Position numbers and translations under genes: made by a program. From the IMG/VR virus record IMGVR_UViG_3300027901_000377, positions 1 to 25,184 of that record: a stretch of 25,184 bases of DNA; one strand, given 5' to 3'. Source of the DNA: a virus. Positions 1,978-25,184 of this stretch are shown here, in pieces (positions within the stretch are counted from its first letter, which is position 1; each line of letters starts with the position of its first letter). Under the pieces are notes generated by a model, which did no database searches, was not told the DNA's origin, and saw only the letters and a program-made list of their open reading frames with translations.

Positions 1978-1987
1978 GTTAAAATAA

Positions 1988-2273: not shown

Positions 2274-2294
2274 TATTAACGTAAGGAGAATAAA

Positions 2295-4326: not shown

Positions 4327-4376
4327 GAATAATAAATATTAATAAAAAAAGATTAGAACGAATAGGAGTGATTTAA

Positions 4377-6911: not shown

Positions 6912-6923
6912 AGGAGAACTAGT

Positions 6924-7340: not shown

Positions 7341-7374
7341 AGATAATAATTAAAAACGGTAAAGGAGAAATACA

Positions 7375-8043: not shown

Positions 8044-8054
8044 AGAGGATATTT

Positions 8055-8633: not shown

Positions 8634-8646
8634 AGGAGGAACAAAC

Positions 8647-9111: not shown

Positions 9112-9136
9112 TCTTAGTGAAAGGATTTTTTAAAGT

Positions 9137-12100: not shown

Positions 12101-12745
12101 GAAGGAGTTTTAACGGAAGGATTCACTATAGACTATGACAATCAAAAATTAATATTTAATGAACCTATTTATCTTTTTATAAAAAACGATTATGGAGAAA
12201 TTGAAGAAATAAGAGCACCTATGATTAGATTGAAATTATGGAAAAAAAAGTATTATTCTAATACTGATGACGAATCTGAAGACCCCGAAATTGATATTTC
12301 TAATCCCTTATTATTTATAACTGATAAAGTAGGCACATATTCAGAAACTATTATAGATTTATTACAACTAACAAATTTATCTATTCAAATCGGAGGTTCT
12401 TATTTAGATGCCGATGGAAATAGGATAATTGTACCTTCTTGGGATGATACAGATTTCGCTGAAGATTTGGCATATTGGCAATTAAGTAATAGTGCTTATA
12501 AATCTATCAGAGGGTCTATCGATGTAACTTTAGATAGTGCAGTAACTTATGGGATAGAATTATCTAATAGAATTCAAATAGATGGAGTTACTGAGAATCC
12601 TTTGAATATAATTTCTATGACATATAATATGTCGAATTTCCAAGTAACTATCCAATTACAAAATGGGCAATATTATAGAAGAAAAATGTCTATTCCTAAT
12701 CATTTCGTTCCTGATAATAGGGCAAGGTTTCGTTTTACAACGTAG
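9137..12745 (+). CDS. Tail hub (Tal/gp27-like) with N-terminal lectin-like and beta-helix domains
   Basis: A 1202-residue multidomain virion protein. Residues about 1-195 form a concanavalin-like beta-sandwich (DFTTFIEVDPN at the start, DFEHYFDF, GLSQDTTYYVKV, SGYVENMDL at the end), a module I know from many metagenomic surface proteins. Residues about 205-245 are short repeats (VILSDEILV, TISLDDRII). Residues about 260-540 are a right-handed parallel beta-helix with Asn-rich turns (IENNIIYDVN, IQYNLIYDTV, NIINNTLVGS, VHNNIIYDWD). Residues about 600-665 hold Asp/Asn repeats (DNDIRTLAES, DNDVRVLADY). From about 669 to 1202 the chain matches the gp27-like hub (VKVYIGG, LLYKGYITSI, INCNNLYW). 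It would cap the tube and bind or process a host glycan. The domain order is the reverse of usual Tal proteins. Confidence 0.75.
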   Translation: MAYQDFTTFIEVDPNNYWSQTSVRNTGTNLPYTDSSYVYKDLGVDYFEDFEHYFDFNTTDGGFPLIGYWALCNTPGTWYDMTVAGDGMYFLAYGGGFTFGIFTAPSTSKGAMEMSGLSQDTTYYVKVGRSGTDIYYGIYPTANDRENDTNAIFSNTYNSCPTTKYKYLQCGYPYGVGGATTQSGYVENMDLTPGAPGEETFEGADTVILSDEILVSPTKEILRVDDTISLDDRIIFFRTYHEGTIYSNETWKAEDNPHGIIGNVSIANGATLTIEAGCEIYFEAGTRITIMSNGTAIKVDGTEENPILFTSANKLPLYGGNPAKGDWEYINDGNVTTPKTSYVHYAIVEYAGQGSVTAIRHIPEVKNCIIRHCNGAGIEPYNNTDIYIENNIIYDVNLGIYCGWGLNSTIDIQYNLIYDTVTEAIEIGGSQDYNGNINIINNTLVGSGSDEGIFFNDADGIGTAYVHNNIIYDWDTGIKETDSNISFDVDYNDYYSCNTNVDGVSAGTNSITSDPEFINISEDNYLIRTSSPCAFSGNETYDHYIGYDINFVPVFLDDQITLLRDDSVTSQEEDEATITIGDEFEFLATVRKDISQKIRTVKEEEIDIDQKFNTAVRSTSYFVNLMSAVNGDISDFDNDIRTLAESTNNVDNDVRVLADYQVPGDTGFQSLGKEYVKVYIGGSEQTDLNVDSISITKIVNGAHTATFELGRAYDSTKPSVESVVTIYYHNWLLYKGYITSITPASTPEAIRINCNNLYWKENREKLYFFVGHEPVDNKEKYYYNISTALTNELGWSPGIGNFIPQTMNLFGIGKSEVTTDLITNCGNYGWYYDKDENKKLWTAGRGSIIDLERQEIGKNLGLYQVLRHQFTEDISTIVNKLRVQMGDKVIRNFNDTGETKEYPSFMYENINTAVNPDWDEDYEVLSKNSDNGYGWDWHKTEDNEKYKTVFTKYELPFLNPESESWTDRYPPQVEVILPYSLWWECSLNEGVLTEGFTIDYDNQKLIFNEPIYLFIKNDYGEIEEIRAPMIRLKLWKKKYYSNTDDESEDPEIDISNPLLFITDKVGTYSETIIDLLQLTNLSIQIGGSYLDADGNRIIVPSWDDTDFAEDLAYWQLSNSAYKSIRGSIDVTLDSAVTYGIELSNRIQIDGVTENPLNIISMTYNMSNFQVTIQLQNGQYYRRKMSIPNHFVPDNRARFRFTT

Positions 12746-12764
12746 CCTTAGAAAGGTTTAATAA

Positions 12765-13487
12765 ATGACTATTAACGAAGAAATAAAACAATTAAAACAA
12801 CAGATAGCCTCTCTACAATCTAAAGTAAATGATTTATCTAAAAATTTAGAAAATAAATCTATCGTTCCTTATTCTAAAGTAAAAAATATAGATATGAGTC
12901 AAGTTATGCCTGTAGACCCTAAAGTAGGATTTGGATTAGGTATTTTACCCTGGAATGATGCTGAAATAATAAAACCTCCTTCTAATGCTCAACCAGAAGA
13001 ACCTAGTAAAGGATATAATAAACATGGACATTCTAGATACGCTGGTGGAGCTTTAGATATATCAACTTTAGAATTAGTAGAATATGAAACTGATGACAAC
13101 GGTAATTTATTAGATGAAGAAGGAGAAATTTTAAATAAACATACTCAGCAATTTTGGTCAAGAAATGGAAAGGTTAAAACCGTTGAAAAAAAGACAGAAG
13201 ATGGACAAAGTGAATTTATTCCTAAAATAGGTAATTTAGACATTGAGTTTGATGTATCAACACAAAAATGGGTAGCTGGAGGTAAATATATAGATGTTGA
13301 AAATACTTATTTAGTTCGTAAAGACCCCGAAACTGGAGAGATTATGACTACAGGTGAAGATGAAGTAGAAATGAAATCACCGTTACTTGATACTTCAGAT
13401 GATAGTAAAAGTAGCGTGGTATGGGATGATGAAGCTAATGTTTGGAGATTCTATGCGGTATTCGCTGAAGACCCTGCACAGGAGTAA
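12765..13487 (+). CDS. Virion protein with N-terminal coiled coil
   Basis: A 240-residue acidic protein. Residues about 1-32 form a clear heptad coiled coil (NEEIKQLKQQIASLQSKVND), likely to trimerise the chain. A Pro-rich linker follows, then a conserved-looking segment HGHSRYAGGALDISTLELVE at about 86-105, and then a beta-rich C-terminal part with two VWDDE/WVAGG-like strand pairs (about 170-235). It follows the hub gene by 20 bases and precedes the last tail gene by 4. Coiled coil plus beta-rich tip suggests a short tail-tip fibre or connector. I know no named family with certainty. Confidence 0.55.
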   Translation: MTINEEIKQLKQQIASLQSKVNDLSKNLENKSIVPYSKVKNIDMSQVMPVDPKVGFGLGILPWNDAEIIKPPSNAQPEEPSKGYNKHGHSRYAGGALDISTLELVEYETDDNGNLLDEEGEILNKHTQQFWSRNGKVKTVEKKTEDGQSEFIPKIGNLDIEFDVSTQKWVAGGKYIDVENTYLVRKDPETGEIMTTGEDEVEMKSPLLDTSDDSKSSVVWDDEANVWRFYAVFAEDPAQE

Positions 13488-13490
13488 ATT

Positions 13491-14672
13491 ATGGCAACTA
13501 TTTACAGATGTCCTTTTTGTTATAATAATTATACCATAAATGAAGAGGGAGAAATAGAAAGCTCTTCCTTTGAACATGACCCTATACTTACCAAATCTGG
13601 TACTAAATATACTTTAGAATCAGAAGACGGAGGAGTAACTTGGAATTGGATTAATCATGAAAACGATGAAAATTTTATTCCTAATTTTCAAGGACTAGAA
13701 CGTCTTCAAAATAATCATATTATAGAAATACAAGAAGAATGGAATTCCGTTCAACAGATTTATATAGTTGAAGCAGAACGAATTGAATTAGATATAGTAG
13801 AAGAAGATATTATAGATAGATTTAATAAAAAGCATATTAGAGATTTGAGAAATGTTGTTACAAAAGTTCTAGCAAAATTTGCTATAGGATGGGCTGGTTT
13901 TTTTAATTATGCTATTTTAAAATGGATGGGCACATATCAGACCAATTGGCATGACCCCGATTTAGATAATTATAAAGGACGGATTAAAAATGTTCATATA
14001 GAAGATTTTAGACATCATTATAAAGTAATGGGTGCTAATCCTGTACCTCATCCAACACTTCAAGAAGATATAGAATCTGATAGTAATTCTACTTTTGTTG
14101 AAGGTACTGTTCCTCCCTGGTATTGGAGTAATTCTACTACTTGGCCTTTAGATATAGGATATAACGATGACGACCCTGAAAATCCTTACTATCATTGGGG
14201 ATTGTCATATCATGCACAATCTGGAACAATATACGATGGAACTAGAATAGATACCGACCATTATATTCATTCTGTAACTGAAAATTTTCAAAATCAATAT
14301 CCAGAAGCTAATTTTTCTTTTTCTAAATCTATACCCAATTTAACTCCTCCTTCTGATATTATTAGTTATACTAAATCATCTGAACAAGAAAGAATTAATA
14401 CTAAAGAATACGAAGGTAGTTATGGAACTATTACTAGGGGAGGTATTAATGGATATAGGATAGATTATTATCAATCTCCAGATTATCCCGATTACGCTAC
14501 TGATGGTACAATAGTTCAAACAGATTATGGAGATATTTCTGAATATGAAATAATTGTTCATTTACATTGGTCTTTAGTTGATAGTTATATAGATTATTAT
14601 GGATATGATTATGCTGTGATGAAATTGACAGGTGCTTTAAGTAAGGAAATCGGAGTTCCCAAGTGGGATTAA
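13491..14672 (+). CDS. Probable tail-tip / receptor-contact protein
   Basis: A 393-residue acidic protein, last gene of the tail operon. It opens with one CPFC knuckle (residues 7-10) that lacks a second pair, so a full zinc ribbon is doubtful. Residues about 100-150 are helical with a moderately hydrophobic stretch (KVLAKFAIGWAGFFNYAILK). The rest is rich in Trp, Tyr, Asn, Asp and His (VPPWYWSNSTTWPLDIGY, YYHWGLSYHAQSGTIYDG), typical of carbohydrate- or protein-binding tip proteins. It ends GALSKEIGVPKWD. The ATG follows the previous stop by 3 bases, with an AGGAG site inside that gene's last codons. Role inferred from position and composition only. Confidence 0.5.
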   Translation: MATIYRCPFCYNNYTINEEGEIESSSFEHDPILTKSGTKYTLESEDGGVTWNWINHENDENFIPNFQGLERLQNNHIIEIQEEWNSVQQIYIVEAERIELDIVEEDIIDRFNKKHIRDLRNVVTKVLAKFAIGWAGFFNYAILKWMGTYQTNWHDPDLDNYKGRIKNVHIEDFRHHYKVMGANPVPHPTLQEDIESDSNSTFVEGTVPPWYWSNSTTWPLDIGYNDDDPENPYYHWGLSYHAQSGTIYDGTRIDTDHYIHSVTENFQNQYPEANFSFSKSIPNLTPPSDIISYTKSSEQERINTKEYEGSYGTITRGGINGYRIDYYQSPDYPDYATDGTIVQTDYGDISEYEIIVHLHWSLVDSYIDYYGYDYAVMKLTGALSKEIGVPKWD

Positions 14673-14692
14673 TTTCTTCCCATTCAGACGCT

Positions 14693-14854
14693 TCACTCGC
14701 CTCTCGGCTCGTTCCGTCTACGTCCTCTAATATCAACGTTCCACGTCTTTTCGTATTCTTTCCTATTAACGATTATACCGCCACAACGTAAACATTCCTC
14801 ATGACACGCTAAATACGTCTTTTTACAATCTAAACATATATAATTCCAGTCCAT
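14693..14854 (-). CDS. Zinc-ribbon microprotein (53 aa)
   Basis: Read on the minus strand, ATG at 14854 opens a 53-residue frame with two CxxC knuckles, CLDC (residues 7-10) and CLRC (21-24), plus an extra Cys17, and a basic C-terminus (IRGRRRNEPRGE). This is a compact rubredoxin-type zinc ribbon. AGAGGTAAT before the start is a usable ribosome site. It is the last gene of the minus-strand block and ends 20 bases from the converging tail operon. The plus-strand terminator lies just upstream of its start, so tail transcripts cross it in antisense. Function unknown, with a nucleic-acid- or polymerase-binding adaptor possible. Confidence 0.7.
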   Translation of the reverse strand: MDWNYICLDCKKTYLACHEECLRCGGIIVNRKEYEKTWNVDIRGRRRNEPRGE

Positions 14855-14875
14855 ATTACCTCTAAACGTTGTTTA

Positions 14876-14901
14876 AAGCCCCTATAAGGGGCTTATTTTT
14901 T
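14876..14901 (+). terminator. Intrinsic terminator of the tail operon
   Basis: AAGCCCC (14876-14882) pairs perfectly with GGGGCTT (14888-14894) around TATAA, followed by A and six T (14896-14901). This is a textbook rho-independent terminator for plus-strand transcription. It lies 204 bases after the last tail gene. On the minus strand the hairpin is followed only by TTTAAAC, so it would act weakly on the opposing transcripts, in the leader of the zinc-ribbon gene. Confidence 0.8.
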
Positions 14902-14982
14902 ATATACGACACTTACCCCTATTTACGGTTTTACGCCTCGCTACGCTTATCCTAGCTTCACCAGTGACCTATTAAGGGGTAT

Positions 14983-15135
14983 TTATTCCTCTATATCAGT
15001 AATTTCGGTATCGTGATATATTTCTTCATACTGTTTATAATTACCTCCAGTAAACATATTTTCAGCTTCAATGTCATCTTCTGCTTCTATATCTACTGTA
15101 TAGAGACGTGAGAAATAAATTCTATACTTTGGCAT
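14983..15135 (-). CDS. Small acidic protein (50 aa)
   Basis: The frame starts at ATG 15135 with AAGGAGA seven bases upstream and encodes 50 residues. A beta-strand pair (KYRIYFSRLYTVDIEAED) is followed by an acidic helix and tail (DIEAENMF ... DTEITDIEE). The shape, a strand, an 'EAED-xxEAE' turn and a helix, resembles the small DpnD/PcfM-like proteins found in phages and plasmids, but the match is by eye and weak. It follows the 59-residue zinc-ribbon gene by 10 bases. The gap of 128 bases after it, 14855-14982, holds the tail-operon terminator and no further gene. Confidence 0.6.
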   Translation of the reverse strand: MPKYRIYFSRLYTVDIEAEDDIEAENMFTGGNYKQYEEIYHDTEITDIEE

Positions 15136-15145
15136 TTTTTTCTCC

Positions 15146-15325
15146 TTAAAATTCGTTATAATGTTTTTGTATATATTCTAATAAACAATCAATATTACAA
15201 AAATCCCATTTAGAAGTCGTACTTTGTAAATATATATTTTTACGACTCAATTCATATTTATTATAATTATTTTCGATATTTAAAAGTTTATCGCAATTAT
15301 CACATCTTATTTCTCTTTTTTCCAT
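15146..15325 (-). CDS. Zinc-binding microprotein (59 aa)
   Basis: The 59-residue frame begins at ATG 15325 behind AAGGAAAA. It has a CDNC knuckle at residues 8-11 and a second pair C43-x3-C47 (FCNIDCLLEYI), the spacing seen in FCS/MYM-type or treble-clef zinc fingers in which the second knuckle caps a helix. Between them lies a charged strand region (YELSRKNIYLQSTTSKWDF). It overlaps the end of the 36-residue gene before it by 19 bases and runs into the next ribosome site. Function is unknown. Such proteins often mediate protein or nucleic acid contacts in phage takeover. Confidence 0.65.
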   Translation of the reverse strand: MEKREIRCDNCDKLLNIENNYNKYELSRKNIYLQSTTSKWDFCNIDCLLEYIQKHYNEF

Positions 15326-15417
15326 ATTTTCCTTTTCTTTTTATAACATTTATTCCACATTCCTTTAACAGTTTTAGTTATATTACAACAATGAGGGCAT
15401 AGAGTTCTTTCTTCCAT
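15307..15417 (-). CDS. Possible zinc-finger microprotein (36 aa)
   Basis: ATG at 15417 lies directly behind GAGGAAT and opens 36 codons. The product has CPHCC near residues 7-11, one further Cys24, and a very basic C-terminus (KKKRKIWKKEK). Only three or four possible metal ligands are present, so a full zinc site is uncertain. It overlaps the next gene by 19 bases. The good ribosome site and its place in a run of similar genes support it, but its small size leaves doubt. Confidence 0.45.
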   Translation of the reverse strand: MEERTLCPHCCNITKTVKGMWNKCYKKKRKIWKKEK

Positions 15418-15449
15418 TATTCCTCATAATATAGAGTATAAAAACGTCC
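15417..15449 (-). pseudogene. Remnant resembling the C-terminus of the PD-(D/E)XK gene
   Basis: A start-less frame ends here with GRFYTLYYEE and a stop, close to GRSYALYYEE near the end of the nuclease gene. At DNA level 14 bases are identical (15420-15433 and 15683-15696). It may be the tail of a duplicated, deleted copy. The same bases also supply the ribosome site of the 36-residue gene, so chance or selection for that site is an alternative. Confidence 0.3.
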
Positions 15450-15472
15450 CACGTAGCTCTTTATATAAACTA

Positions 15473-15658
15473 TTAGCTATTATCTTGTTCCTTTGCCTCT
15501 ATACTATCGTCAAACTTCTTTAATTCTTCGTTTATACGGTTAAATTCGGCGTTTCTCTTATAATATTTTGGTTTATTAAACTTTCTTTTATTTGTAATTA
15601 TTTTTATAAAGATTACCCAATATAAAATAAATACTGTTAAAAATATTAATAGTATCAT
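15473..15658 (-). CDS. Single-span membrane microprotein (61 aa)
   Basis: The first 21 residues form a strong membrane span (MILLIFLTVFILYWVIFIKI). A Lys/Arg-rich stretch (NKRKFNKPKYYKRN) follows, which would keep the C-terminus inside the cell, and then an acidic helix (INEELKKFDDSIEAKEQDN). The ATG directly follows the TAA of the PD-(D/E)XK gene, and AAGGAAAA lies within that gene's last codons, so the two are translationally coupled. It could be a small membrane effector, holin-like or exclusion protein. I do not recognise a family. Confidence 0.6.
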   Translation of the reverse strand: MILLIFLTVFILYWVIFIKIITNKRKFNKPKYYKRNAEFNRINEELKKFDDSIEAKEQDNS

Positions 15659-16351
15659 TTAAATTTTCCTTTCTTTTTTATTTTCCTCATAATATAAGGC
15701 GTAAGACCGCCCCTTTGGTTTTAAAGATATATTCTTTATTACACCTCTATGTATCCATTGAACAATAGAACTTCTGGCACAAGTATCGGAAGAATAATGA
15801 TGATTTATCTCAGTCATAAGTTCTTTGAAAGTTATACCTGGTTTATCTTTGACAACTCTGTGAATTTGTCGAACAGTGTCTTGGAAGGGAGTATAACGTT
15901 CTCCCTTAGAATTTCCAGCTTTAGCCCACTTTTTATGTTCTTCACATAATCTTTCTTTTATATATTGGCTAATTACTTTTCTATGAAGTTGAGGAGATAT
16001 ATAAGACACAGAACTTAAAAGCATTTCTGGTTCAAGTTCTAAACATCCAATACCATATTGTTTTAAAACTTTATAAGCAAATTGTCTCCCATTATTGTTT
16101 CGATAAGTTTTAGGAACTGCAACGGAGACATAATTAGCGTAATGAGTCCAACGTTCTGCTTGAGCAATGACATCGAGGCTTAATGATTTCTTACATTCAA
16201 TTATCCAAATTAATCCATTTTGGATAGCTACAATATCAGCTATTTGTCCATGTATTGTAACTTCTTGATAAACTTCCCATTTTAAATCTTGAAGATATTC
16301 TATAACCTTTTCTGCTAGTTTTACTTCTGATTTAAATGTAAGTTTTTTCAT
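15659..16351 (-). CDS. PD-(D/E)XK nuclease-like protein with C-terminal winged-helix-like region
   Basis: The 230-residue protein has a restriction-endonuclease fold core. A helix (residues 8-22) is followed by the strand WEVYQEVTI, then ADI with Asp39, then IIECKK with Glu52 and Lys54, and then an AQAERW helix. D-x12-ExK is the catalytic signature of this nuclease superfamily. Residues about 165-225 look like a winged helix (ITFKELMTEINHH, SSIVQWIHRGVI, then a Lys-rich wing GRSYALYYEE). I start it at ATG 16351, which overlaps the previous stop as TAATG. A longer frame from a TTG at 16393 has no support. It may cut host or rival phage DNA, or act in recombination or repair. The exact target is unknown. 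Confidence 0.75.
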   Translation of the reverse strand: MKKLTFKSEVKLAEKVIEYLQDLKWEVYQEVTIHGQIADIVAIQNGLIWIIECKKSLSLDVIAQAERWTHYANYVSVAVPKTYRNNNGRQFAYKVLKQYGIGCLELEPEMLLSSVSYISPQLHRKVISQYIKERLCEEHKKWAKAGNSKGERYTPFQDTVRQIHRVVKDKPGITFKELMTEINHHYSSDTCARSSIVQWIHRGVIKNISLKPKGRSYALYYEENKKERKI

Positions 16352-16581
16352 TATTGACTTAACCCTACCATTTGGTATCCACAAAAGGGACAATAAGCAC
16401 TTCGAATAGTTCCTGGATAGCTACTATAAGCTGGATAATTAAAACGTCCTTTACAAGTGGGACATTCGTAATTAAATTCTATTTGAGTAGTAATGGGGTA
16501 AATATTATATTTACCATAACATTCCATACATTTACCGTTAAATAAACTATTAGTTTCTATTCCGCAAATATTACACTTCAT
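16351..16581 (-). CDS. Double zinc-ribbon protein (76 aa)
   Basis: Four CxxC knuckles are visible: CNIC (3-6), CMEC (18-21), CPTC (40-43) and CPFC (64-67), which make two complete zinc ribbons. The linker holds aromatic and Pro/Tyr-rich strands (FNYPAYSSYPGTIRSAY). It overlaps the previous gene by 11 bases and the nuclease gene by one base (TAATG), so it is probably made together with the nuclease and may be its partner or a transcription-type adaptor. GGAGTGGAAAG precedes the ATG. Function unknown. Confidence 0.75.
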   Translation of the reverse strand: MKCNICGIETNSLFNGKCMECYGKYNIYPITTQIEFNYECPTCKGRFNYPAYSSYPGTIRSAYCPFCGYQMVGLSQ

Positions 16582-16750
16582 ACTCTTTCCACTCCTTTAA
16601 CATTCTTTTATCTTGTAAATATTGTTTATACCATTTAGCTGATTTTCCTTTAACCCACTTATTTATAGGGGCAGTTTCTACAATTTTATCGTTGAGAGTC
16701 TCTATATAGACAGTGAATTTTTTAGTAAAGACGTATATCCATTTCCGCAT
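16571..16750 (-). CDS. Small basic protein (59 aa)
   Basis: ATG at 16750 behind GAGAGGA opens 59 codons. The product begins with a beta hairpin (KWIYVFTKKFTVYIETLN) and continues into a basic, Trp-rich helix (KWVKGKSAKWYKQYLQDKRM, LKEWKEYEV). It contains no cysteines. It overlaps the following double zinc-ribbon gene by 11 bases. The composition suggests nucleic acid binding, but no family is recognised. Confidence 0.6.
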   Translation of the reverse strand: MRKWIYVFTKKFTVYIETLNDKIVETAPINKWVKGKSAKWYKQYLQDKRMLKEWKEYEV

Positions 16751-16776
16751 AAAATCCTCTCATATTCAATCCTGGC

Positions 16777-16811
16777 AAGCCCTAATAGGCTTTAAATAGG
16801 CTATTTTAGGC
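16777..16811. repeat. Inverted repeat with phased AGGC copies
   Basis: AAGCC (16777-16781) pairs with GGCTT (16788-16792), a short hairpin without a good U-tract on either strand. AGGC occurs three times on the plus strand at 16787, 16798 and 16808, about one helical turn apart. The stretch lies between the end of the MptE-like gene and the small-gene run and could be a weak transcript end or a protein site. Confidence 0.3.
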
Positions 16812-17522
16812 GTTTTTGACCCAATTTAGCTTTTTACGGATGTCATTTCGAAGTTTTTCTTGGTCATACACGTCCCCATTGAGACGGTTAAAGAATTCGT
16901 CGTAACTTAACTTTGGGAAGATGTCGCAAGGAATTCTACTTATTTGCGACACATTATAAATTTTAATATCTTTTATATTTCTATACACTCCAAAGTCTCT
17001 TTCTGCTCGTCCATTAGAATTATAATAATTTACCTTATTAATACCCCGATGATTTATCTCTCCTTGATAATAATGAGTAAGAGACTTCTTTTCTTGAGGT
17101 TTTTTCAATTCTCCGTAGTCATATCCTAATAAATATATTTCATCTCCTGAATTTGCCAGGTAAATTGCCATAGATAATGCCCACATACCGACCAAAGAAG
17201 CCTTATATACTCCATGTTTAATATCTCTATAATAAGTTGTAATAGAAGGTAAAAGTAAAGTATTTGATAATTGTTTTTCTAACTTTTTTTTATTACCTAT
17301 AATAAGAGGCAATTCCTTTAATCTTTCAATATTTTTGTCATAAAAATCATTATCTACAAAGGATTGAAACGTAGGATTAGGAAAATGATAAAAACTATAA
17401 TTTAACCCTATGACAAAATAATTATTAATTTTTTGCCATAATCCTTTTTTAATCCCCTCTTTTATAGAAAAACCTCCTCCTATGATTATACATTGAGTAG
17501 GTTTATTTTTTAAATCCCTCAA
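16806..17522 (-). CDS. MptE/DUF115-like Rossmann protein, copy 1
   Basis: A 238-residue protein with an N-terminal nucleotide-binding loop [10 protein letters not shown] (residues 11-20). A later strand IYLLGYDYG (129-137) is preceded by a helix with [14 protein letters not shown], and an Asn/His region follows it. This layout belongs to the DUF115/MptE-like and GT42 sialyltransferase-like group, which bind nucleotide or nucleotide-sugar. Phage members are usually unstudied. The likely start is TTG 17522: GGAG lies 7 bases upstream and no ATG is available before the conserved loop. It overlaps the HNH gene by 20 bases. A distant paralogue lies at 20374-21024. The reaction cannot be fixed from sequence, but sugar or phosphosugar transfer is plausible given the neighbours. 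Confidence 0.6.
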
Positions 17523-18180
17523 TTATTTTCTCCAATTTTCTTATTTTTTGTTGAGCTATTTTTAACAAAGTATTATGTTCGTGAGTTTTAAGATTTGCGA
17601 TGGATAAATTTTCTATTCTATTATCATCTTTAATTCCATTAGTATGATGAACTATTTCTTCTGTTCTTAAATATCTACCTAAATATTTTTCCATAACTAA
17701 ACGATGTTCCATAACATAATTATTTGTAGCTCTATAAGGATGAGTAGGGGAAAATATTAAAATATATCCTCTACTCTTGCATTTTCCATTTTTATAATTA
17801 TGTGCTTTTTCGCCTTTGTATTTTCCTTTTAATGCTTTACTTATATTCATTTTGGCTTTAGTTGTTAAAGATTTTTTATGTTTATATTTACAAGTATTGC
17901 AATAAGTTGAAGTATAACAAGATAATTTTTTACCACAATCTACACAATAATACTTTTTATTAGTTCTACCATCAATATAACTATGATTTAATTTTCCTGT
18001 TTGAGCTTCGCTATAATTTCGAATTTTAATCTTAAATTTCTTCAAATATCTTCTGATAGTACTACGACTGTAGCCTACTTCTTTAGCAATTATTGGAACA
18101 GATTTTTGTTTTCTATTATATTCTTTAATCAAAAATGTTTTAGTTATTATTTTTTTTATTTTATTAAAATTTTTTTTCAT
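17503..18180 (-). CDS. HNH homing endonuclease with HTH, zinc ribbon and NUMOD3
   Basis: The 225-residue protein has a helix-turn-helix at about 25-55 ([20 protein letters not shown]). A zinc ribbon lies at 79-97 (CVDC, CNTC), a NUMOD3-type DNA-binding motif at about 105-130 ([14 protein letters not shown]), and an HNH nuclease at 158-203 ([37 protein letters not shown]). All core residues are present. Such free-standing nucleases copy themselves into related genomes by cutting them. It lies within the minus-strand operon, 1 base after the membrane protein gene and overlapping the MptE-like gene, so it inserted without breaking either neighbour visibly. Confidence 0.9.
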
Positions 18181-18181
18181 A

Positions 18182-18700
18182 TTATCCTATAAATATAAGA
18201 AGCATAGCTCCTAGAGTTAAAGTAAAATAAGTTACGAATTCTGATTTTGCTAATAATTTCCTAAAAAAAGTAAATAAACCAAAATTTTTCCAACTTAAAA
18301 ATGAATAAACAGCAATAATTAATAGACTTCCTAAAATATAGAGAATCCAACAACCTTTTATTATAGGTATACTTATTAAAGATAAAGAAGCTAAAATTCC
18401 TATAGTACCTCTTGTAAATATATTGACTAATAAATTATTACCAGAAAACAAATTATAAAAAAATTTCCCTAAAGGAGAACCAGAATCCGTATTATCTGGA
18501 ATACCATAACCAAGACATAAAATTCCAATTAAAAATAGAATAGATAAAACTAACCAGTGATGTAAAACTAATAAAGCTATTAAAGTAATTGAAATAGGAA
18601 TTCCTAATCTTCGCCAGTTTTTATCTGTTTCAGAAGCTCCTCCATAAGCTCCTAATAATCCTCCTATAATCCCTAATATCACCAATACTAATTTTTTCAT
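18182..18700 (-). CDS. Multi-pass membrane protein
   Basis: A 172-residue hydrophobic protein with about five to six predicted membrane spans (roughly residues 2-20, 33-47, 48-65, 95-110, 113-135 and 155-171). A conserved-looking loop [20 protein letters not shown] lies near residues 16-35. I know similar Gly-Gly/Arg-Arg loop proteins from other phage genomes, but they have no assigned role. A holin, a superinfection-exclusion protein or a glycan-lipid flippase partner are all possible given the nearby hydrolase and glycan genes. It starts 12 bases after the previous stop. Confidence 0.6.
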
Positions 18701-18712
18701 ATTATACTCCTT

Positions 18713-19258
18713 TTAATCCCACAAAGAAAAGAAATATTCTTTAAATAAGTCAAAGCCTCTTTCGAATTCTTCTACTTCCTTTTTGTTTAGGATTTTATTT
18801 TTATATTTATGTTCTTCTTTCCATTTTTTTAATTTTTTATATTCTTTATCTGACCATTCTTTAGAAGGCAAATAAAGAACATCTCCATTTGAAATTTCTT
18901 TAGCTAATTCAAAGGTGTTAATAATTGTATTTAAAATACAATCCTGTTCGTTTTCTGCTTCTAATTCTGTTTTACCTGGAGTCCAAGTAAATAAACCATG
19001 TTGAATTTTTTTTAAGTGTTTTACGCCTTCGCATATTATTTCTGACAGATAACTATGAAAGTCCCACGTATCGCTATTAGCCCATCCTCTTTTTCCTCTT
19101 TGAATAAAAGTTTTTATATTGAGTGGAATATCTTCGAAAAATCTTATCATTCTATAATAAACTCTACTAATTTTAGTGAGAATAGGATGTTTACGTTCTT
19201 CTTCTTTAAGCCCTTTAAAATAATTTTCTATAGATTCTACTTTTTCTATTTTGCACAT
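18713..19258 (-). CDS. Conserved phage protein of unknown function
   Basis: A 181-residue, helical, soluble protein. Its centre (residues 54-82) carries RGKRGWANSDTWDFHSYLSE followed by an Ile/Cys/Glu helix. An 'RGxxxxDTWxxxxYL' pattern is one I have met in many tailed phages in proteins without a known role. The C-terminal half is Lys/Glu-rich helix ending in FKEYFFSLWD. It lies between the hydrolase and the membrane protein genes with gaps under 15 bases. No catalytic motif is evident. Confidence 0.6.
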   Translation of the reverse strand: MCKIEKVESIENYFKGLKEEERKHPILTKISRVYYRMIRFFEDIPLNIKTFIQRGKRGWANSDTWDFHSYLSEIICEGVKHLKKIQHGLFTWTPGKTELEAENEQDCILNTIINTFELAKEISNGDVLYLPSKEWSDKEYKKLKKWKEEHKYKNKILNKKEVEEFERGFDLFKEYFFSLWD

Positions 19259-19266: not shown

Positions 19267-19761
19267 CTATATTTTTTGTTTAAGTAATTCGTAACTTACA
19301 TTAGAAGCTTTTGCTTTAGAAATATCGTCAGGTGTTACAAGATAAGGACTTTTTTTATGAGAAGGGATAAAATAATATCCTTCTTTTTCTAAACCCCTTG
19401 CAATTAAATTACTACAAGTAAATCCATGTAAAGGTGTATCTTGACCATAAAAAAATATTTTAGATATTATTTTTAAATATTTGAAATAAGTTCTTTTTCG
19501 TTTAAATTGACTAGCATATTCTATAGCTTCTTTAAGTTGTTTTTTAGTTATAGACTTTAACCTTATAAGTTTTACTTTATATTTCCAATTTAAATATTTT
19601 GTAATAGGGCAAACTTTTATAGCTGTAGCTCTCGCTTCCAATAAATAATGATGGTCTATAGCCCAAGCTACATGATTCCAGTAAGACTTTGTAATCTTTC
19701 TAATTAACCATGCAAGAGGGTCGAATCGACTATGGATTAATAATAAATCTCCCTTTTTCAT
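19267..19761 (-). CDS. Permuted NlpC/P60-type (YiiX-like) hydrolase
   Basis: The 164-residue protein matches the permuted papain-like NlpC/P60 group: GDLLLIHSRFD at the N-terminus, WNHVAWAID with His30 as the likely catalytic His, Glu42 in LLEARA, and FTCSNLIARGL with Cys116 as the likely nucleophile. This His-first, Cys-later order is the circularly permuted form found in YiiX/YebB-like amidases. It could cleave peptide bonds of the cell wall (endolysin-like) or remove lipid or amide groups. No signal peptide is present. The ATG overlaps the previous stop (TAATG) with GGAGAAG before it, so it is coupled to the glycosyltransferase gene. Confidence 0.7.
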   Translation of the reverse strand: MKKGDLLLIHSRFDPLAWLIRKITKSYWNHVAWAIDHHYLLEARATAIKVCPITKYLNWKYKVKLIRLKSITKKQLKEAIEYASQFKRKRTYFKYLKIISKIFFYGQDTPLHGFTCSNLIARGLEKEGYYFIPSHKKSPYLVTPDDISKAKASNVSYELLKQKI

Positions 19762-20390
19762 TAACTTCTCCGCTTTTTTAATCGCCTGCTTGCTTGAGTA
19801 TGCAAAATAACTATATCCTTTTTTTGAATCATATGGGTAGGAATTTGATTATTGGGTAAAATAATAGTAGCATAAGAATAAGGTAAATTATAAATTTGCA
19901 ATTTTTTATTGGCTTCTACAACTTTTTGCATTGATTTTTGTTCCCATATATTAGGATTTCTATCTATTTCTCTTATAAAAGATTGAATAAGAAAAAAAGA
20001 AGTTCGTTTATAAGGGATATACATAGTTCCTGATAAAAATTCTTTAGTATTATGACCAGTCTCTTTCCTCCACATTTTATACCAGTCTAACCAATGAATA
20101 CCTAAATCATATTTGGCTGGTATTTGTTCAAATAGAATAGGGTATTTCCATATTTCCGCATCAGCATCTAAAAAAATAACAGAACATTTATGCTTTAATA
20201 ACATTTCCTTAATAAATTTAGATTTATAAGCGGTATTTTTATTCCAACTTCCCAAATCTGGAATTTTTTTTATATCGTAGGATAAATTGAAACGATTTAA
20301 AGAAGGAAGCAAGTGTTTATTTATTTCTTCTTCATACGGAGTATTTTCTGTATAGTAACTAATATATATTATTTTATTTAAGTTTTTCAT
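19761..20390 (-). CDS. DxD glycosyltransferase, copy 1
   Basis: The 209-residue protein looks like a short GT-A fold enzyme: beta-alpha start (IIYISYYTENTPY), a KSKFIKEMLLKH helix, then VIFLDADAEI with Asp75-x-Asp77 (metal and nucleotide-sugar binding), and LSGTMYIPY in the acceptor region. It is clearly paralogous to the protein at 21694-22296: shared NRFNLSYDI/KKFNLSYDI, GSW, FIK-MLLKHK, LDADxEI, HWLDWYKMWRK/HYLDWYRYWRN and GT-Y. Such sequences lie near GT8/GT77-like enzymes. Donor and acceptor are unknown. It overlaps the MptE-like gene by 17 bases and abuts the hydrolase gene. Confidence 0.7.
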   Translation of the reverse strand: MKNLNKIIYISYYTENTPYEEEINKHLLPSLNRFNLSYDIKKIPDLGSWNKNTAYKSKFIKEMLLKHKCSVIFLDADAEIWKYPILFEQIPAKYDLGIHWLDWYKMWRKETGHNTKEFLSGTMYIPYKRTSFFLIQSFIREIDRNPNIWEQKSMQKVVEANKKLQIYNLPYSYATIILPNNQIPTHMIQKKDIVILHTQASRRLKKRRS

Positions 20391-21024
20391 ATGGAATTAT
20401 CCCATTTAATTTACTGATTTCCGAATTGCTTATAATTTTTATATCTGGTCTTTTTTCCTTTAATTCTAATAATCCCTTCTTCCAATATTCAAAATATATG
20501 TCTAATTTTTTCTGAAAACTAATACTTGATTCTTTATATCCTCCATGAAAATGAGTTTGTTTTCCAATTACAAAATCAATTCCTAGCAAATGTATTTTAT
20601 TAAATCCTAGTAATATAGCTAATTGAAGTCCACAATAACCGCTATTTGCTCCATTACAAAAATCTTTCCATTTAAATCCAATACCATTTACATTATAACT
20701 CTTTATAATAATATTAAAATCTTTAAGATTATATATTATACCGTGTCCTCTAATATCTTTTATTTGTCCATTTTCTTCTTTTAAATAAGGTACATGAAAA
20801 TTGACTACAAAAATTTTATCAGTAGATAATGAATCTAAATATTTTTTTAGTTTTTTAATTTTATTAAGGAAGGTAAAGTCCATTGTAATAAAATAATCTG
20901 GATAAGGAACATAAAAAATAGATTTATTAATACAAATAGTAGTTTTATTTGCTAGCCATTTTAAATTCTTGTTCCTTAATGACCAACCTCCACCTACTAT
21001 ATATATTTCTTTTTTATTTTCCAT
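20374..21024 (-). CDS. MptE/DUF115-like Rossmann protein, copy 2
   Basis: A 216-residue protein with the N-terminal loop IYIVGGGWSL (7-16), YPDYFITMDF (41-50), SGYCGLQLAILLG (128-140), IHLLGIDFV (144-152) and HFHGGY (158-163). A glycine loop, a late 'G-x-D' strand and a His/Gly motif are shared with phage DUF115/MptE-like proteins and recall GT42 sialyltransferases. It probably binds a nucleotide or CMP/UDP-sugar. It is related to the gene at 16806-17522. It lies between GT2 and DxD glycosyltransferase genes and overlaps both by 11-17 bases, so it most likely takes part in the same glycan. Confidence 0.65.
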   Translation of the reverse strand: MENKKEIYIVGGGWSLRNKNLKWLANKTTICINKSIFYVPYPDYFITMDFTFLNKIKKLKKYLDSLSTDKIFVVNFHVPYLKEENGQIKDIRGHGIIYNLKDFNIIIKSYNVNGIGFKWKDFCNGANSGYCGLQLAILLGFNKIHLLGIDFVIGKQTHFHGGYKESSISFQKKLDIYFEYWKKGLLELKEKRPDIKIISNSEISKLNGIIPYEKLK

Positions 21025-21694
21025 GATGTTCCTTATAATATTTTATTAATTCACTATAAGAATAAGTTTTTAAAATTGGTTTAGGTATTTTTTTTATAAA
21101 TTTTCTTTTCCATATTCCTATTCTATCTTCATGATTTCTAACATAATATAATATCTCTGATAATTTGGTCATTTTAGGATGTTTAATAAGATACCTATTT
21201 ATAAATTCTATATCTCCTCCTCCTAAATTAAAAGAAATATTAGGTAAAATTTCTAAGTCTTTTTTATACATAATACTACCTGCACAGTTGGTGTTCATAA
21301 ATTTTTTTTGGTATAATTTTTTACCTTTTTTATTCATCCATATCCATCCACAATAAACCAAATCGTTTTTTTCAATTGCTTTGGCTTGTTTTTCTATTCT
21401 TTCTGGATGAGAACTATCATCACTATCTTGATAGCAAATAATTAAACTTGTACTCGCTTTAATTAATTGAACTTTAGCAAAAACTCCTCCTTTATTTTCT
21501 TTATTTTCTATAATTTTTATCCTATTATCTTCTTTACTTAATCGTTTAGCTATATTTATAGAATTATCAGTAGAGCCATCTAAATATATTATAATTTCTA
21601 AATTAGAGTATGTTTGATTCATAATAGAACGTACTGCTTCTTCTAGATATTTTTCCCTATTATATACAGGTATTAATACTGAAATTTTTTCCAT
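21014..21694 (-). CDS. GT2 family glycosyltransferase
   Basis: The 226-residue enzyme has the family-2 GT-A core: VLIPVYNREKYLEEAVRSI (6-24), YLDGSTDNS (37-45), then CYQDSDD (88-94) as the DxD-type metal site, and an NLGGGDIEF region (about 157-165) where the acceptor loop lies. There is no membrane span, so it is a soluble transferase, probably taking a UDP- or dTDP-sugar. Length is on the short side for the family but complete through the catalytic domain. Its start codon overlaps the stop of the DxD gene before it (TAATG). Confidence 0.9.
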   Translation of the reverse strand: MEKISVLIPVYNREKYLEEAVRSIMNQTYSNLEIIIYLDGSTDNSINIAKRLSKEDNRIKIIENKENKGGVFAKVQLIKASTSLIICYQDSDDSSHPERIEKQAKAIEKNDLVYCGWIWMNKKGKKLYQKKFMNTNCAGSIMYKKDLEILPNISFNLGGGDIEFINRYLIKHPKMTKLSEILYYVRNHEDRIGIWKRKFIKKIPKPILKTYSYSELIKYYKEHHGK

Positions 21695-22296
21695 TATTTT
21701 TTTATCTTTCTTGATAATTGATATTGTTTAATAACTATATTTTTTACATATGAAGGTACGGTATTGTTACGTTTAATAATAACACAATATTCTATTGGCA
21801 AATCGTATATTTTCAATATAGTTTTAAATTTCTCAGATATTTTTTGCATATCCGTTTGAGCATAATTGTTGGTTCTTTTTTGTTGTTTAATCCATTCATC
21901 TACAAAGGTTAAGACATTTTTATTATAATTAAAATATATAGTTCCTCCTAAAGCTATTCTTTGAGATTTTCCTTTTTTATTTCTCCAATATCTATACCAA
22001 TCTAAATAATGAAAGGACATATCATATTGTTCTAATTTATCAAATAAGATGGGATATTGAATTATTTCAGAATCTGCATCCAAAGATACTATAGCTTGTT
22101 TATGTTTTAATAACATTTTTTTTATAAATTCAGATTTATATCTCACATTTTTTAGCCAAGACCCTTTATCTTTAATATAGTCTATATCATATGATAAATT
22201 AAATTTTTTCAAAGAAGGAATCAAATATTTTTCCATTATCTCTATATAAGGAGAATTTTTTGTTACAAAACTAACAAATACAAGAGAGTTTAACAT
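21694..22296 (-). CDS. DxD glycosyltransferase, copy 2
   Basis: A 200-residue paralogue of the protein at 19761-20390. It keeps the SFVTKNSPY start, GSW, EFIKKMLLKHK, VSLDADSEI with Asp73-x-Asp75, HYLDWYRYW and a GGTIYFNY acceptor segment, but its C-terminus is shorter and basic. Both copies keep the metal-binding Asp residues, so both are likely active on different donors or acceptors. It has GGAGAAAAG before its ATG and follows the GT-B gene by 62 bases, the largest gap in this operon. Confidence 0.7.
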   Translation of the reverse strand: MLNSLVFVSFVTKNSPYIEIMEKYLIPSLKKFNLSYDIDYIKDKGSWLKNVRYKSEFIKKMLLKHKQAIVSLDADSEIIQYPILFDKLEQYDMSFHYLDWYRYWRNKKGKSQRIALGGTIYFNYNKNVLTFVDEWIKQQKRTNNYAQTDMQKISEKFKTILKIYDLPIEYCVIIKRNNTVPSYVKNIVIKQYQLSRKIKK

Positions 22297-22372
22297 TTTT
22301 ACTTTTCTCCATAATATAAGTAAAATAAGCCTGCCTATAATTTCTATAAAAATATTTATTATGATAGCCCAT
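22271..22372 (-). CDS. Possible bridging microprotein (33 aa)
   Basis: ATG at 22372 behind AAAGGATAATT opens 33 codons that span the only sizeable gap in the glycan operon and overlap both neighbours. The product is aromatic and basic (MGYHNKYFYRNYRQAYF). It may exist only to couple translation across the gap, or be a chance frame. Confidence 0.25.
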   Translation of the reverse strand: MGYHNKYFYRNYRQAYFTYIMEKSKNVKLSCIC

Positions 22373-23324
22373 AATTATCCTTTATTATTTTTAATAGCTG
22401 TTGAACTCTTATTTTATGGGTATGTTTATTTTTTATACATTTAATAGCATTAGAAGTGGTTATTTTTCTATATTCTAGGTCGTTTATAATTTTTTTAACT
22501 TTATTTGATATATCAGAATAATTTCTTTCATATGTACAATATGTGTTACTAGGAAACAATTTAGTTAATCCATTTAAATCTGTTTTATCTGTAAATAATA
22601 CAGACCCACAAGCCATAATTTCAAACATTTTAGCCATATCTAAGTTAAATATAGAAGAACCGTTTAAATGTGAAATATATTGTTGTAAACACTTAATATA
22701 TTCTTCTTCTCTAACTAATCTTTGTTTAAATTTAAACTTTTTATCTATATGGTCGAAGGATTCCTTTCTCCATAAATATACCTTATTTCTAGCTTCTCCT
22801 ACCAAGCAAATCTTGTTTATTCTATTAATATTTATATTGGGTTTAAATATATCTGTATCAATTGAACAAGGTAGCCATATACTTTTAATAGGTAAATCTT
22901 TTTTAGCTCTAAGTACATTACTAAAATGTCTATGTATTATTAAATTAATATTGAAATTATAGTATATCGATTTGTTAAATATATTATGATAATCTCCTTC
23001 CAAATTAATTATAGGAATATTTATACTTTTAAAAGATTTTTCTGTAATCCACTTTTCTTTAATAAATGTAGTTTTATACATTCTATTAATACCATCTAAA
23101 ATAACAATATCATAATTATATTCTTTTTTTAAGTCTGATAATAATATATGTTGTTGCCAAGGTCTAATTAATAATTCTTTATATTCATGTTTCATGTGCA
23201 TATTATAACCATATAATTTTAAATCTACATTTTTAGATTTGGCAATTTCTTTTGCAAAATCAGTATGAAACCAATGATTGTAATGTCTATGGGGGGTATA
23301 TCTAAATAACCATAAAATTTTCAT
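22359..23324 (-). CDS. GT-B glycosyltransferase (CgeB/GT4-like)
   Basis: The 321-residue protein has a two-domain GT-B layout. The N-terminal domain is MKILWLFRYTPHRHYNHWFH ... YDIVILDGINR. The C-terminal donor domain begins near residue 145 (IKSIWLPCSIDTDIF) and carries KMFEIMACGSVLFTDK (232-247), the Glu- and Gly-containing donor-binding motif of the CgeB-like and GT4-like enzymes. It is a predicted soluble cytoplasmic transferase. Its ATG overlaps the stop of the MurB-like gene by 4 bases. The sugar cannot be read from sequence. Confidence 0.8.
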   Translation of the reverse strand: MKILWLFRYTPHRHYNHWFHTDFAKEIAKSKNVDLKLYGYNMHMKHEYKELLIRPWQQHILLSDLKKEYNYDIVILDGINRMYKTTFIKEKWITEKSFKSINIPIINLEGDYHNIFNKSIYYNFNINLIIHRHFSNVLRAKKDLPIKSIWLPCSIDTDIFKPNININRINKICLVGEARNKVYLWRKESFDHIDKKFKFKQRLVREEEYIKCLQQYISHLNGSSIFNLDMAKMFEIMACGSVLFTDKTDLNGLTKLFPSNTYCTYERNYSDISNKVKKIINDLEYRKITTSNAIKCIKNKHTHKIRVQQLLKIIKDNYGLS

Positions 23325-24133
23325 AATATTTTAATTTCTAATTTTAAAGGTTCTTTTACAGTTTTCCGAATTCGATTTATAAAATCTATAATTTCTTGAG
23401 TACTCGCTTTGCCATTATTAGTAATTACGTTTAAATATTTAGATATAGTTAAGTTAGGAGACTTAATAGCTCTAATTTCTTTTTCATAAGGTCTTAATGC
23501 ATAATGATTTACGAAAATACCACCCGCACTATATCCCTTTGGAAAATTTTTTCTATATCCCCTAACTTGCTCAATTAATTTATGATTTATTTTTTGTTTT
23601 TTAAATGTAAATAAAGCCGAAATTAATATTTCTTTTTTATCTTGTAAAATAGAATATCTTCTTCCAAATTGTAAGTTTTCTTTTTGATAATAGTGTTTAT
23701 CTCCATTCAAATCTATTGTTTTAACTCCTATTAGATAGTCAGATATAGTATACTTTCCACTGCCAGAATTCATTACTATTGCTCCACCTATAGTTCCAGG
23801 TATTCCTATTAATCCTTCAAAACCCGTTAATTGTTTTTTAATAATTTCATTAATGAAAACATTAGTAAGATAACTACAACTTACAAGAAAAGAGTTTGGT
23901 TTTTCTAATGGTATTAATATTCGTTCTATTTTTTTTAAACAAATTACCCTTTTTATAGTGTTATTAAGAAGAACATTAGTCCCCCCTGCTAAAACTTCAA
24001 ATTTCGTTCCCTTTAAATCTTTAATTAGCCCAATCAATTCTCCTACTGTTTCTGGAAACCATATTTTTTTTGCTATTGAGTTTAATCGAAAAGAATTATA
24101 ATTTTTTAAATTAAAGTTTTTATAATATTTCAT
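23321..24133 (-). CDS. MurB-like FAD-binding protein with the catalytic serine replaced
   Basis: The 270-residue protein resembles UDP-N-acetylenolpyruvoylglucosamine reductase: YNSFRLNS (12-19, the N-term TxR-type region), VLAGGTNVLL (47-56, FAD pyrophosphate loop), GIPGTIGGAIVMN (110-122), FGRRYSI (156-162), SAGGIFVN (202-209) and a C-terminal Glu266 in KLEIKIL. In true MurB the AG-S-F motif supplies the serine that protonates the flavin-reduced intermediate. Here that position is Gly205. It may therefore be a MurB relative with a changed reaction or only FAD/sugar binding. I start it at ATG 24133 (MKYYKNF), with a 14-base overlap with the LicD gene. An upstream extension lies inside that gene. 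Confidence 0.75.
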   Translation of the reverse strand: MKYYKNFNLKNYNSFRLNSIAKKIWFPETVGELIGLIKDLKGTKFEVLAGGTNVLLNNTIKRVICLKKIERILIPLEKPNSFLVSCSYLTNVFINEIIKKQLTGFEGLIGIPGTIGGAIVMNSGSGKYTISDYLIGVKTIDLNGDKHYYQKENLQFGRRYSILQDKKEILISALFTFKKQKINHKLIEQVRGYRKNFPKGYSAGGIFVNHYALRPYEKEIRAIKSPNLTISKYLNVITNNGKASTQEIIDFINRIRKTVKEPLKLEIKIL

Positions 24134-24731
24134 ATTTTGCCCACCAAAATTCATCCCCTGCTTTAGGTAAAATCTGACAACCAATTCCACTTTCGGCTAT
24201 AAATTTTTTGTGAGGAATTCTCCAATTTTTTCCGTAACATAATTCCAAAACTTTTTCAGCATAAAAAGGCACTTTTGTTTTTTTACCGTAAAATTTTATT
24301 TCTTTTAGTTCTTCCATTAATTTAGCAGGAAGTACCATTAATCCTTTTATACTATCTCTAGGGTAATATCTCCATTTTTTAAGTTTAATAAAACTACATA
24401 TATCGCAGTGCATTTGTCTTTTACTTCCCTTTTCTATTGTTCCTTTATAAATACTTAAACCAGTTGAATTATTATTTATTCTGGCTTTTAAATTATGAAA
24501 TTTCCACTTAGTATCGAATCCGTTTTTTTCAAATAAACTTTTTAAATCATATTTTTTTACATCAAATTCTTCTTTAAATACTCCAATATCCAAATCTTTA
24601 TCTATAAGAATAAATCTTTTTTCTCGAATAGCTCCCAAAAGAGTTCCCAAAAATAAAAAATACCTTAAACCTATTTCATTAAAAATATCATTCATTTCGA
24701 AGAAAAATTTTTTAGCGTGATTTTCATTCAT
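24120..24731 (-). CDS. LicD family phosphotransferase
   Basis: The 203-residue protein carries the LicD/fukutin core: RYFLFLGTLLGAIRE (23-37), FILIDKDLDIGV (40-51) with Asp44, Asp46 and Asp48 in place of the usual W-D-D-D cluster, then FYGKKTKVP (147-155) and LELCYGKNWRIP (162-173). LicD proteins move phosphocholine, phosphoethanolamine or ribitol phosphate from a CDP carrier onto a glycan. The gene follows the cytidylyltransferase gene by 8 bases, a pairing that would make and then use a CDP-linked alcohol. Two to three metal-binding acids are present, so activity is likely. Confidence 0.82.
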   Translation of the reverse strand: MNENHAKKFFFEMNDIFNEIGLRYFLFLGTLLGAIREKRFILIDKDLDIGVFKEEFDVKKYDLKSLFEKNGFDTKWKFHNLKARINNNSTGLSIYKGTIEKGSKRQMHCDICSFIKLKKWRYYPRDSIKGLMVLPAKLMEELKEIKFYGKKTKVPFYAEKVLELCYGKNWRIPHKKFIAESGIGCQILPKAGDEFWWAKYEIL

Positions 24732-24739
24732 AAAAATTT

Positions 24740-25184
24740 CTATTTTTTCTTTTGCGATTTTATAATTTCTACAGCATTACGTATAATTTTTTCTTTAATT
24801 GAAGATGAAGATAATCGAGTAGTATATGGAATAAATATAATTTTATTGTGTTCTCGAAGCCAATTAATACCTTCGCTACCATATCTGTTTTTCCAATCAC
24901 TACCCAAAACGAATATATCTGCTTTGAGTTTTTTAAATTGTTTTATATCTACTAATTTAGTTTGTTTTACTACTTTGTCAACACATTTTAATTCTTTAAT
25001 AATAGCTATTCTATCTTTATAAGAAATTATAGGATATAATCCTTTATATTTTTTAATGAGTTTATCACTGCTTACCCCTACAATTAAATAATCTCCTAAT
25101 GCTTTGGCTCGTAAAAGAATATTCAAATGTCCGAAATGTAGCAAATCCCAACTTCCAGTAGTAAATATTATTTTTTTCTTAGTC
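24740..25184 (-). CDS. Cytidylyltransferase (glycerol-3-phosphate type), 5' end at window edge
   Basis: The frame runs to the window edge. Upstream of the HFGH motif it reads TKKKIIFTTGSWDLL, and the last base is a G directly before the Thr codon, as expected if the start ATG straddles the edge, so the protein is probably nearly complete (about 148 residues). It has the nucleotidyltransferase core: TTGSWDLLHFGH, RAKALGDYLIVGVSSD, VLGSDW, and RLSSSSIKEK as the ISSTxIK-type loop. These features favour the TagD glycerol-3-phosphate cytidylyltransferase group over heptose-type enzymes. It would make CDP-glycerol or a related CDP-alcohol from CTP. A phosphocholine- or other phospho-alcohol-specific role is possible, since LicD follows. 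Confidence 0.8.
   Translation of the reverse strand, partial: TKKKIIFTTGSWDLLHFGHLNILLRAKALGDYLIVGVSSDKLIKKYKGLYPIISYKDRIAIIKELKCVDKVVKQTKLVDIKQFKKLKADIFVLGSDWKNRYGSEGINWLREHNKIIFIPYTTRLSSSSIKEKIIRNAVEIIKSQKKK

Follow-up and report, generated by a model that had tools for sequence, protein, structure and literature searches.

The window analysed in the present study, a linear stretch of viral sequence, 25,184 bases long, from the IMG/VR database (record IMGVR_UViG_3300027901_000377), ends in a cassette of eight open reading frames (ORFs) on the minus strand at positions 19761-25184. It is rather likely that a large tailed phage carries this cassette in a hypervariable island for glycan decoration, whose enzymes would attach charged groups, activated by linkage to a nucleotide, to a short glycan chain. 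This reading draws on the gene content of the cassette, its linkage to phage genes, its conserved position in relatives, the replacement of its interior there and the pairing of LicD with PF01467 proteins. The island lies beside tail genes, is rich in glycosyltransferases and differs in content among relatives, as is characteristic of phage hypervariable glycan or host-recognition islands; its site is best explained as the interval that separates exonuclease/replication genes from the tail module, at the end where the latter converges on the island. The features of this region are:

24740-25184, minus strand: TagD/Fom1-type nucleotidyltransferase (PF01467), start codon beyond the contig end
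24120-24731, minus strand: LicD-family phosphotransferase of 203 amino acids (PF04991, DKDLDIG motif)
23321-24133, minus strand: MurB-like flavin adenine dinucleotide (FAD) oxidoreductase (FAD_binding_4)
22359-23324, minus strand: GT-B glycosyltransferase (PF13524, Glyco_trans_1_2; 36.9 bits, cut-off 25)
21694-22296, minus strand: DxD glycosyltransferase 1, a 48% identical paralogue of DxD glycosyltransferase 2
21014-21694, minus strand: GT2 glycosyltransferase (PF00535, 118 bits)
20374-21024, minus strand: DUF115b, a DUF115-type protein with a predicted Maf/CstII-like fold (PF01973 below cut-off)
19761-20390, minus strand: DxD glycosyltransferase 2 (PF03407, Nucleotid_trans; 26.8 bits, cut-off 22)
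19267-19761, minus strand: C92 permuted papain-like amidase, conserved tail-proximal island member (PF05708; 29.2 bits, cut-off 27)
18182-18700, minus strand: multi-pass membrane protein adjoining the island (6 hydrophobic segments)
16806-17522, minus strand: DUF115a, a second DUF115-type protein, conserved tail-proximal island member (PHROG sialyltransferase-like, 6.5e-5)
9137-14672, plus strand: convergent end of the tail module bordering the island (a beta-helix protein of 1202 amino acids and the two next ORFs)

The tail module on the plus strand includes a tape measure protein (PF10145), the beta-helix protein and their neighbours. From about 15.6 kb onward the recognisable genes lie on the minus strand, the last of them being the cassette ORFs, all eight of which were confirmed. 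The original prediction described them as contiguous and overlapping; they do overlap or abut, with the exception of a 62-base gap between the GT-B gene (22359) and that of DxD glycosyltransferase 1 (22296). The MurB-like ORF probably starts at ATG 24133, with a 14-base overlap with LicD, rather than at GTG 24190. The gene set extends beyond 19761 into the C92 amidase-like gene, through a one-base overlap, and then to DUF115a. The TagD-like ORF runs off the contig end and has no start codon, so the cassette is truncated there, and the completeness claimed for it earlier is unproven. The cassette ORFs do not represent a chance pattern, since their families exceed curated cut-offs and homologues recur at the same site in relatives.

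A scan of viral sequences with the tape measure protein matched only contig G001 (100,617 bases). G001 is 99.98% identical to positions 1-19168 of the window, with zero mismatches and one gap, and stops there, before the cassette; its base 1 corresponds to window position 19168, 99 bases short of the C92 gene region, possibly because strains differ at the cassette. G001 encodes a B-family polymerase, a UvsX-like recombinase, a primase and an SbcC-like exonuclease. DUF115a, which is related to DUF115b, lies inside the stretch common to the window and G001. The G+C content of the cassette (24.2%) is lower than that of every 5.4 kb segment of G001 (minimum 25.8%). The protein at the terminase position had no match in the phages collection. 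Other genes of G001 include those for a Mom-like DNA modification protein (43732-44337; L007 3732-4337) and a tyrosine recombinase (67638-68060), the latter also present in G003 and G052.

Scans with DxD and tail proteins yielded five relatives, namely G002 (54 kb), G003 (101.6 kb), G050 (49 kb), G051 (82 kb) and G052 (104 kb). Each of the five has a cassette on the opposite strand that borders the convergent end of the tail genes, and its DxD, DUF115a and C92 genes lie on that side. The tail genes beside it are syntenic in 5/5 and approximately 23-92% identical to those of the window, and every relative has homologues of DUF115a (45-66% identical) and of the C92 amidase. On the far side of the cassette, G003, G051 and G052 carry SbcC/SbcD-like genes, and the ORFs upstream of the G002 cassette resemble those of G003, as judged by eye. 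The right end of G001 carries a gene with 55% identity to the one preceding the G050 cassette; the two ends of G001 therefore appear to flank the window cassette, which probably fills the space between them. Phage genes are found on the far side as well in 4/5 relatives, and because the cassettes have phage genes on both sides, the cassette is regarded as phage DNA and not as the sign of a prophage boundary. The original prediction of a phage-borne set for building and decorating glycans beside tail genes is upheld by these relatives; the contrary finding that it named, a host polysaccharide locus behind a prophage boundary, was looked for and not encountered.

The tail-proximal genes (DxD, DUF115a and C92) are conserved among the relatives, and the interior of the cassette is replaced. 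In G050 it contains a PF01467-like gene, an adenylylsulfate (APS) kinase, three sulfotransferases and a multi-domain glycosyltransferase of 884 amino acids; in G051, a PF01467-methyltransferase fusion, an APS kinase, a marginal sulfotransferase-like gene, LicD and a GT29-like protein. G052 possesses a gene 44% identical to the sulfotransferase-like gene of G003 and a homologue of DUF115b (43%). The interiors of the sister contigs G002 and G003 encode a sulfotransferase, PhnW, an ornithine-cyclodeaminase-like protein, PF01467 joined to phosphoenolpyruvate (PEP) mutase, parts of phosphonopyruvate decarboxylase, two LicD proteins each, glycosyltransferases, WecB, a PseB/FnlA-like protein and an RmlD-like protein. 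The conserved end and replaced interior, together with the low G+C content, fit an exchange of the cassette as a module. Several HNH genes break up the cassettes and tail genes of the relatives and might aid exchange. In the window, an HNH endonuclease gene (17503-18180) adjoins the island, and the membrane protein encoded at 18182-18700 is also found in G003, where an HNH gene interrupts it.

It seems that G002 and G003 make 2-aminoethylphosphonate, as far as can be judged from the sequences of their PEP mutase, decarboxylase and PhnW. PhnW exceeds its cut-off (429 against 360.8 bits), as does WecB (283.7 against 210.2). The PEP mutase, a single ORF with PF01467 in G003 and broken into two ORFs in G002, is over the Pfam cut-off and below that of NCBIfam (245 against 319.6 bits); its motif in G003 reads EDNIFPKSNS against EDKxxxxxNS, with one substitution (EDN for EDK). 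For the parts of the decarboxylase, too, the NCBIfam cut-off is not reached. Among the 50 contigs compared, PEP mutase occurs in G002 and G003 only, and a scan with narrow patterns for other PhnW-bearing phages gave just these two. No paper on phosphonate synthesis by phages was found among those searched, all from an open-licence library, so that such a paper may well exist elsewhere. The WecB, PseB/FnlA-like and RmlD-like genes of the sisters (L054 6870-7853, L053 5277-9002) suggest synthesis of an N-acetyl deoxysugar donor.

The pattern is wider than this group. Homologues of DxD glycosyltransferase 2 were found at 66 viral loci and those of DUF115b at 37, and 33 of the 66 DxD loci also contain DUF115b. 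The two often form the ends of a variable stretch rich in glycosyltransferases, methyltransferases, radical SAM proteins and sugar epimerases. Of the 50 contigs, 17 have PF01467 and seven have LicD; each of the latter includes a PF01467 gene within about 2.6 kb of LicD, with gaps of 0.1-2.5 kb (hypergeometric P ~2e-4, an indicative value, as the set was chosen by DxD/DUF115/TagD homology and includes related records).

The nucleotidyl activation and transfer proposed for the window were borne out at the level of families. The TagD-like protein matches PF01467 with 71 bits (cut-off 21) and has the sequences HFGH at the HxGH site and YTTRLSSSS where TagD reads RTxGISTT. It is below the NCBIfam cut-offs both for glycerol-3-phosphate cytidylyltransferase (TIGR01518, 80.8 against 165.4 bits) and for the HldE C-domain/RfaE heptose-1-phosphate adenylyltransferase (TIGR02199, 94.5 against 181.5 bits). 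Its matches in the PDB include the two-domain PCYT2 (86 bits), Bacillus subtilis TagD (77.6) and Fom1 (62.6). It is 64% identical to a protein of L011; a contig scan with narrow patterns gave no bacterial relatives of the TagD pair. The LicD protein belongs to its family by score (PF04991, 40.6 against 22.6 bits) and by the acidic DxD motif DKDLDIG, and it matches the NCBIfam cholinephosphotransferase Mf1 at 7.9e-17, below the cut-off. The two stand side by side, as a cytidylyltransferase and a LicD-type transferase do in phosphonyl tailoring (Pnt) loci. The TagD-like protein may act as an activator of a phospho-alcohol or phosphonate dependent on cytidine triphosphate (CTP). The cytidine diphosphate (CDP)-alcohol of the original prediction is retained as one option beside phosphonate: the protein reaches neither curated cut-off, and in the sisters the homologous domain is fused to PEP mutase, which points to phosphonate there. 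L011 also encodes, at 6633-7676, a LicD protein with a C-terminal part resembling GNAT acetyltransferase, as judged by eye.

The MurB-like protein exceeds the cut-off of FAD_binding_4 (31.9 against 26.4 bits) and is under every MurB cut-off (88.3 against 144.5 bits for NCBIfam TIGR00179). The Ser/Cys of the MurB AG(S/C) motif is the catalytic general acid. Gly replaces it here (YSAGGIF, compared with AGSIF/AGCAF in aligned MurBs), which makes ordinary MurB chemistry doubtful. The single-protein scan of viral sequences gave no match to this protein. Matches in the phages collection, with 22-30% identity in unannotated records, were set aside, and one in L109, to a methyltransferase-like protein, seems fortuitous.

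DxD glycosyltransferase 1 had no Pfam match, and DUF115b scored 29.2 bits with the MptE-like family PF01973, below the gathering score of 34.6. AlphaFold models of DUF115b and DxD glycosyltransferase 2 had predicted local distance difference test values of 90 and 86, respectively. The best Foldseek matches of DUF115b were Maf (5mu5) and CstII (1ro7), with E 7e-5 and 1e-4, probability 1.00 and a template modelling (TM) score of about 0.5, and those of DxD glycosyltransferase 2 were the PBCV-1 capsid glycosyltransferase structures 2p6w/2p72. By its predicted fold DUF115b is a putative Maf/CstII-type glycosyltransferase, a type that uses a sugar activated with cytidine monophosphate. Most of the family names given earlier thus hold at curated cut-offs; the MptE-like assignment gives way to the Maf/CstII fold, and MurB stands as a resemblance of doubtful function.

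For the donor, order of steps, acceptor and benefit, we infer the following scheme. With CTP, the TagD-like enzyme would activate a small compound bearing a phosphate (or phosphonate) group. A short glycan would be built by the GT2, GT-B, two DxD and Maf/CstII-like transferases and would receive the activated phospho- or phosphonyl group through the action of LicD, and the MurB-like flavoprotein may modify a sugar donor. As acceptor, a tail or capsid protein of the virion, synthesised in the cytoplasm, is slightly favoured over the host envelope, and the benefit would be a changed virion surface or receptor masking. A hydrophobicity scan of the eight enzymes revealed no convincing membrane segment, and the Wzx-type flippase (PF01943) was absent from nine records, the GtrA, Wzy and ligase families not having been searched. 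These results lean towards a cytosolic acceptor, with virion proteins as the simplest candidates, and a virion protein is somewhat more likely than the host envelope. Modification of lipid-linked precursors in the cytosol is also workable. Teichoic acid, suggested earlier as a target, is not specially indicated.

Several points weigh against this proposal. TM scores of ~0.5-0.67 make the structural matches moderate, and many transferases share the GT-A fold. One hydrophobic segment was flagged in DUF115b; it was interpreted as a strand buried inside a soluble protein whose fold is predicted with confidence. The junction between the tail region and the window cassette is known from one contig, backed by synteny in the relatives, and that contig is cut at the TagD-like gene; PEP mutase is absent from the window, so cut, and from G001. 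The choice of the 50 contigs by homology counts here too. Cellular LicD proteins and sulfotransferases usually act on surface polymers.

The last point leads to the strongest alternative, in which the same island and chemistry serve the host envelope (capsule, lipopolysaccharide or wall polymer), a late surface change stopping adsorption of rival or progeny phages. LicD-like transferases and phosphonate tailoring are tied to bacterial cell-surface glycans (PMC6697681), and this target was preferred for phage LicD and glycosyltransferase genes by the authors of PMC8008677 and PMC7029224. The missing PF01943 flippase and membrane segments speak for virion decoration instead, as do the nearest folds, which include protein and capsid glycosyltransferases (Maf, PBCV-1). 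An envelope acceptor has an appreciable chance, short of even.

It is more doubtful that 2-aminoethylphosphonate is the substrate of the TagD-like/LicD pair of the window and that genes for PEP mutase, decarboxylase and PhnW are situated just past the contig end. The equivalent site of both sisters holds these genes with two LicD each, Fom1 is among the PDB matches, and PF01467 is fused to 23.6% of bacterial PEP mutases (PMC6697681). However, the window protein is stand-alone, 34-36% identical to the fused domain of the sisters and nearer to PCYT2 and TagD than to Fom1, and its 64% identical relative lies in a 42 kb contig (L011) that lacks PEP mutase, although it encodes a PhnW-like aminotransferase with a score under the cut-off. 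A bolder and still less probable extension is that the lineage swaps charged-group modules (phosphonate, phospho-alcohol, sulfate) for virion glycans and that the group added by the present phage is 2-aminoethylphosphonate or something chemically similar, so that virions have a coat with C-P bonds.

Modification of phage DNA (glycosylated bases) in place of an envelope or virion glycan is very improbable: the cassette adjoins the tail module, and LicD, TagD-like, PhnW and Maf/CstII-like enzymes are not known to take part in DNA modification. In its favour, some phage glycosyltransferases act on DNA (PMC12619734), and G001 has the Mom-like protein. A bacterial surface-polysaccharide locus joined to the phage by a prophage boundary or chimeric assembly would suit the lower G+C content, the end of the 100 kb contig G001 at window position 19168 and its tyrosine recombinase elsewhere, but is hardly credible, given the DUF115 homologue within the G001-shared region and the cassettes at the same site in other contigs, with DxD/DUF115a/C92 and phage genes on both sides.

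As a glycan-decoration island, the cassette can be compared with known systems. In pelagimyophages and cyanomyophages, a hypervariable host-recognition cluster adjoins the tail genes and contains several glycosyltransferase and rfaE-type genes (PMC7029224). The island resembles it in variability, glycosyltransferase content and tail-side position, but belongs to a different phage lineage and is encoded on the opposite strand from the tail module; its DxD/DUF115/C92 genes are conserved, and it contains activation-transfer pairs, i.e., CTP/LicD and 3'-phosphoadenosine 5'-phosphosulfate (PAPS)/sulfotransferase. In Flandersviridae, LicD likewise adjoins a cytidylyltransferase gene (PMC8008677), but this is of the IspD type and in the replication module, whereas here it is of the PF01467 type and in a glycosyltransferase cassette by the tail. 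Bacterial Pnt loci combine PF01467-PEP mutase fusions with LicD-like transferases (PMC6697681); the window shares the cytidylyltransferase with a LicD-like transferase, and the sister phages also the fusion, decarboxylase and 2-aminoethylphosphonate transaminase. Here the genes are phage-borne, and PEP mutase, decarboxylase and transaminase were not seen in the window. Mycobacteriophages are reported to glycosylate virions (Freeman 2023, as cited in PMC12619734); the likeness to them and to the PBCV-1 capsid enzyme, the nearest DxD fold, is in virus-encoded glycosyltransferases, with additional activation, LicD and MurB-like genes here and a putative acceptor. GtrABC seroconversion cassettes are also phage-encoded glycosyltransferases, but the cassette showed neither a membrane transferase nor a flippase, in a search that covered PF01943 and membrane segments. 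The cassette had been called unusual; its contents and those of its relatives do appear so, whereas variable glycosyltransferase regions and LicD-cytidylyltransferase neighbours are known.

These data suggest that related phages can replace a whole glycan-decorating block at a single constant site and, with it, the chemistry, which would be either PAPS-based sulfation or CTP-based transfer of phospho- or phosphonyl groups. The different blocks at this site suggest that evolution of these viruses includes changes of a sugar coat, and such variation, of a virion or a host-surface coat, can now be put to the test. Viruses may be an added source of phosphonates in nature.

Within the tail module of the window, one gene includes an intein-like insert (2911-4326; Intein_splicing 1.1e-3, below cut-off), and homologous ORFs comprise 118 amino acids in G002 and 114 in G003.

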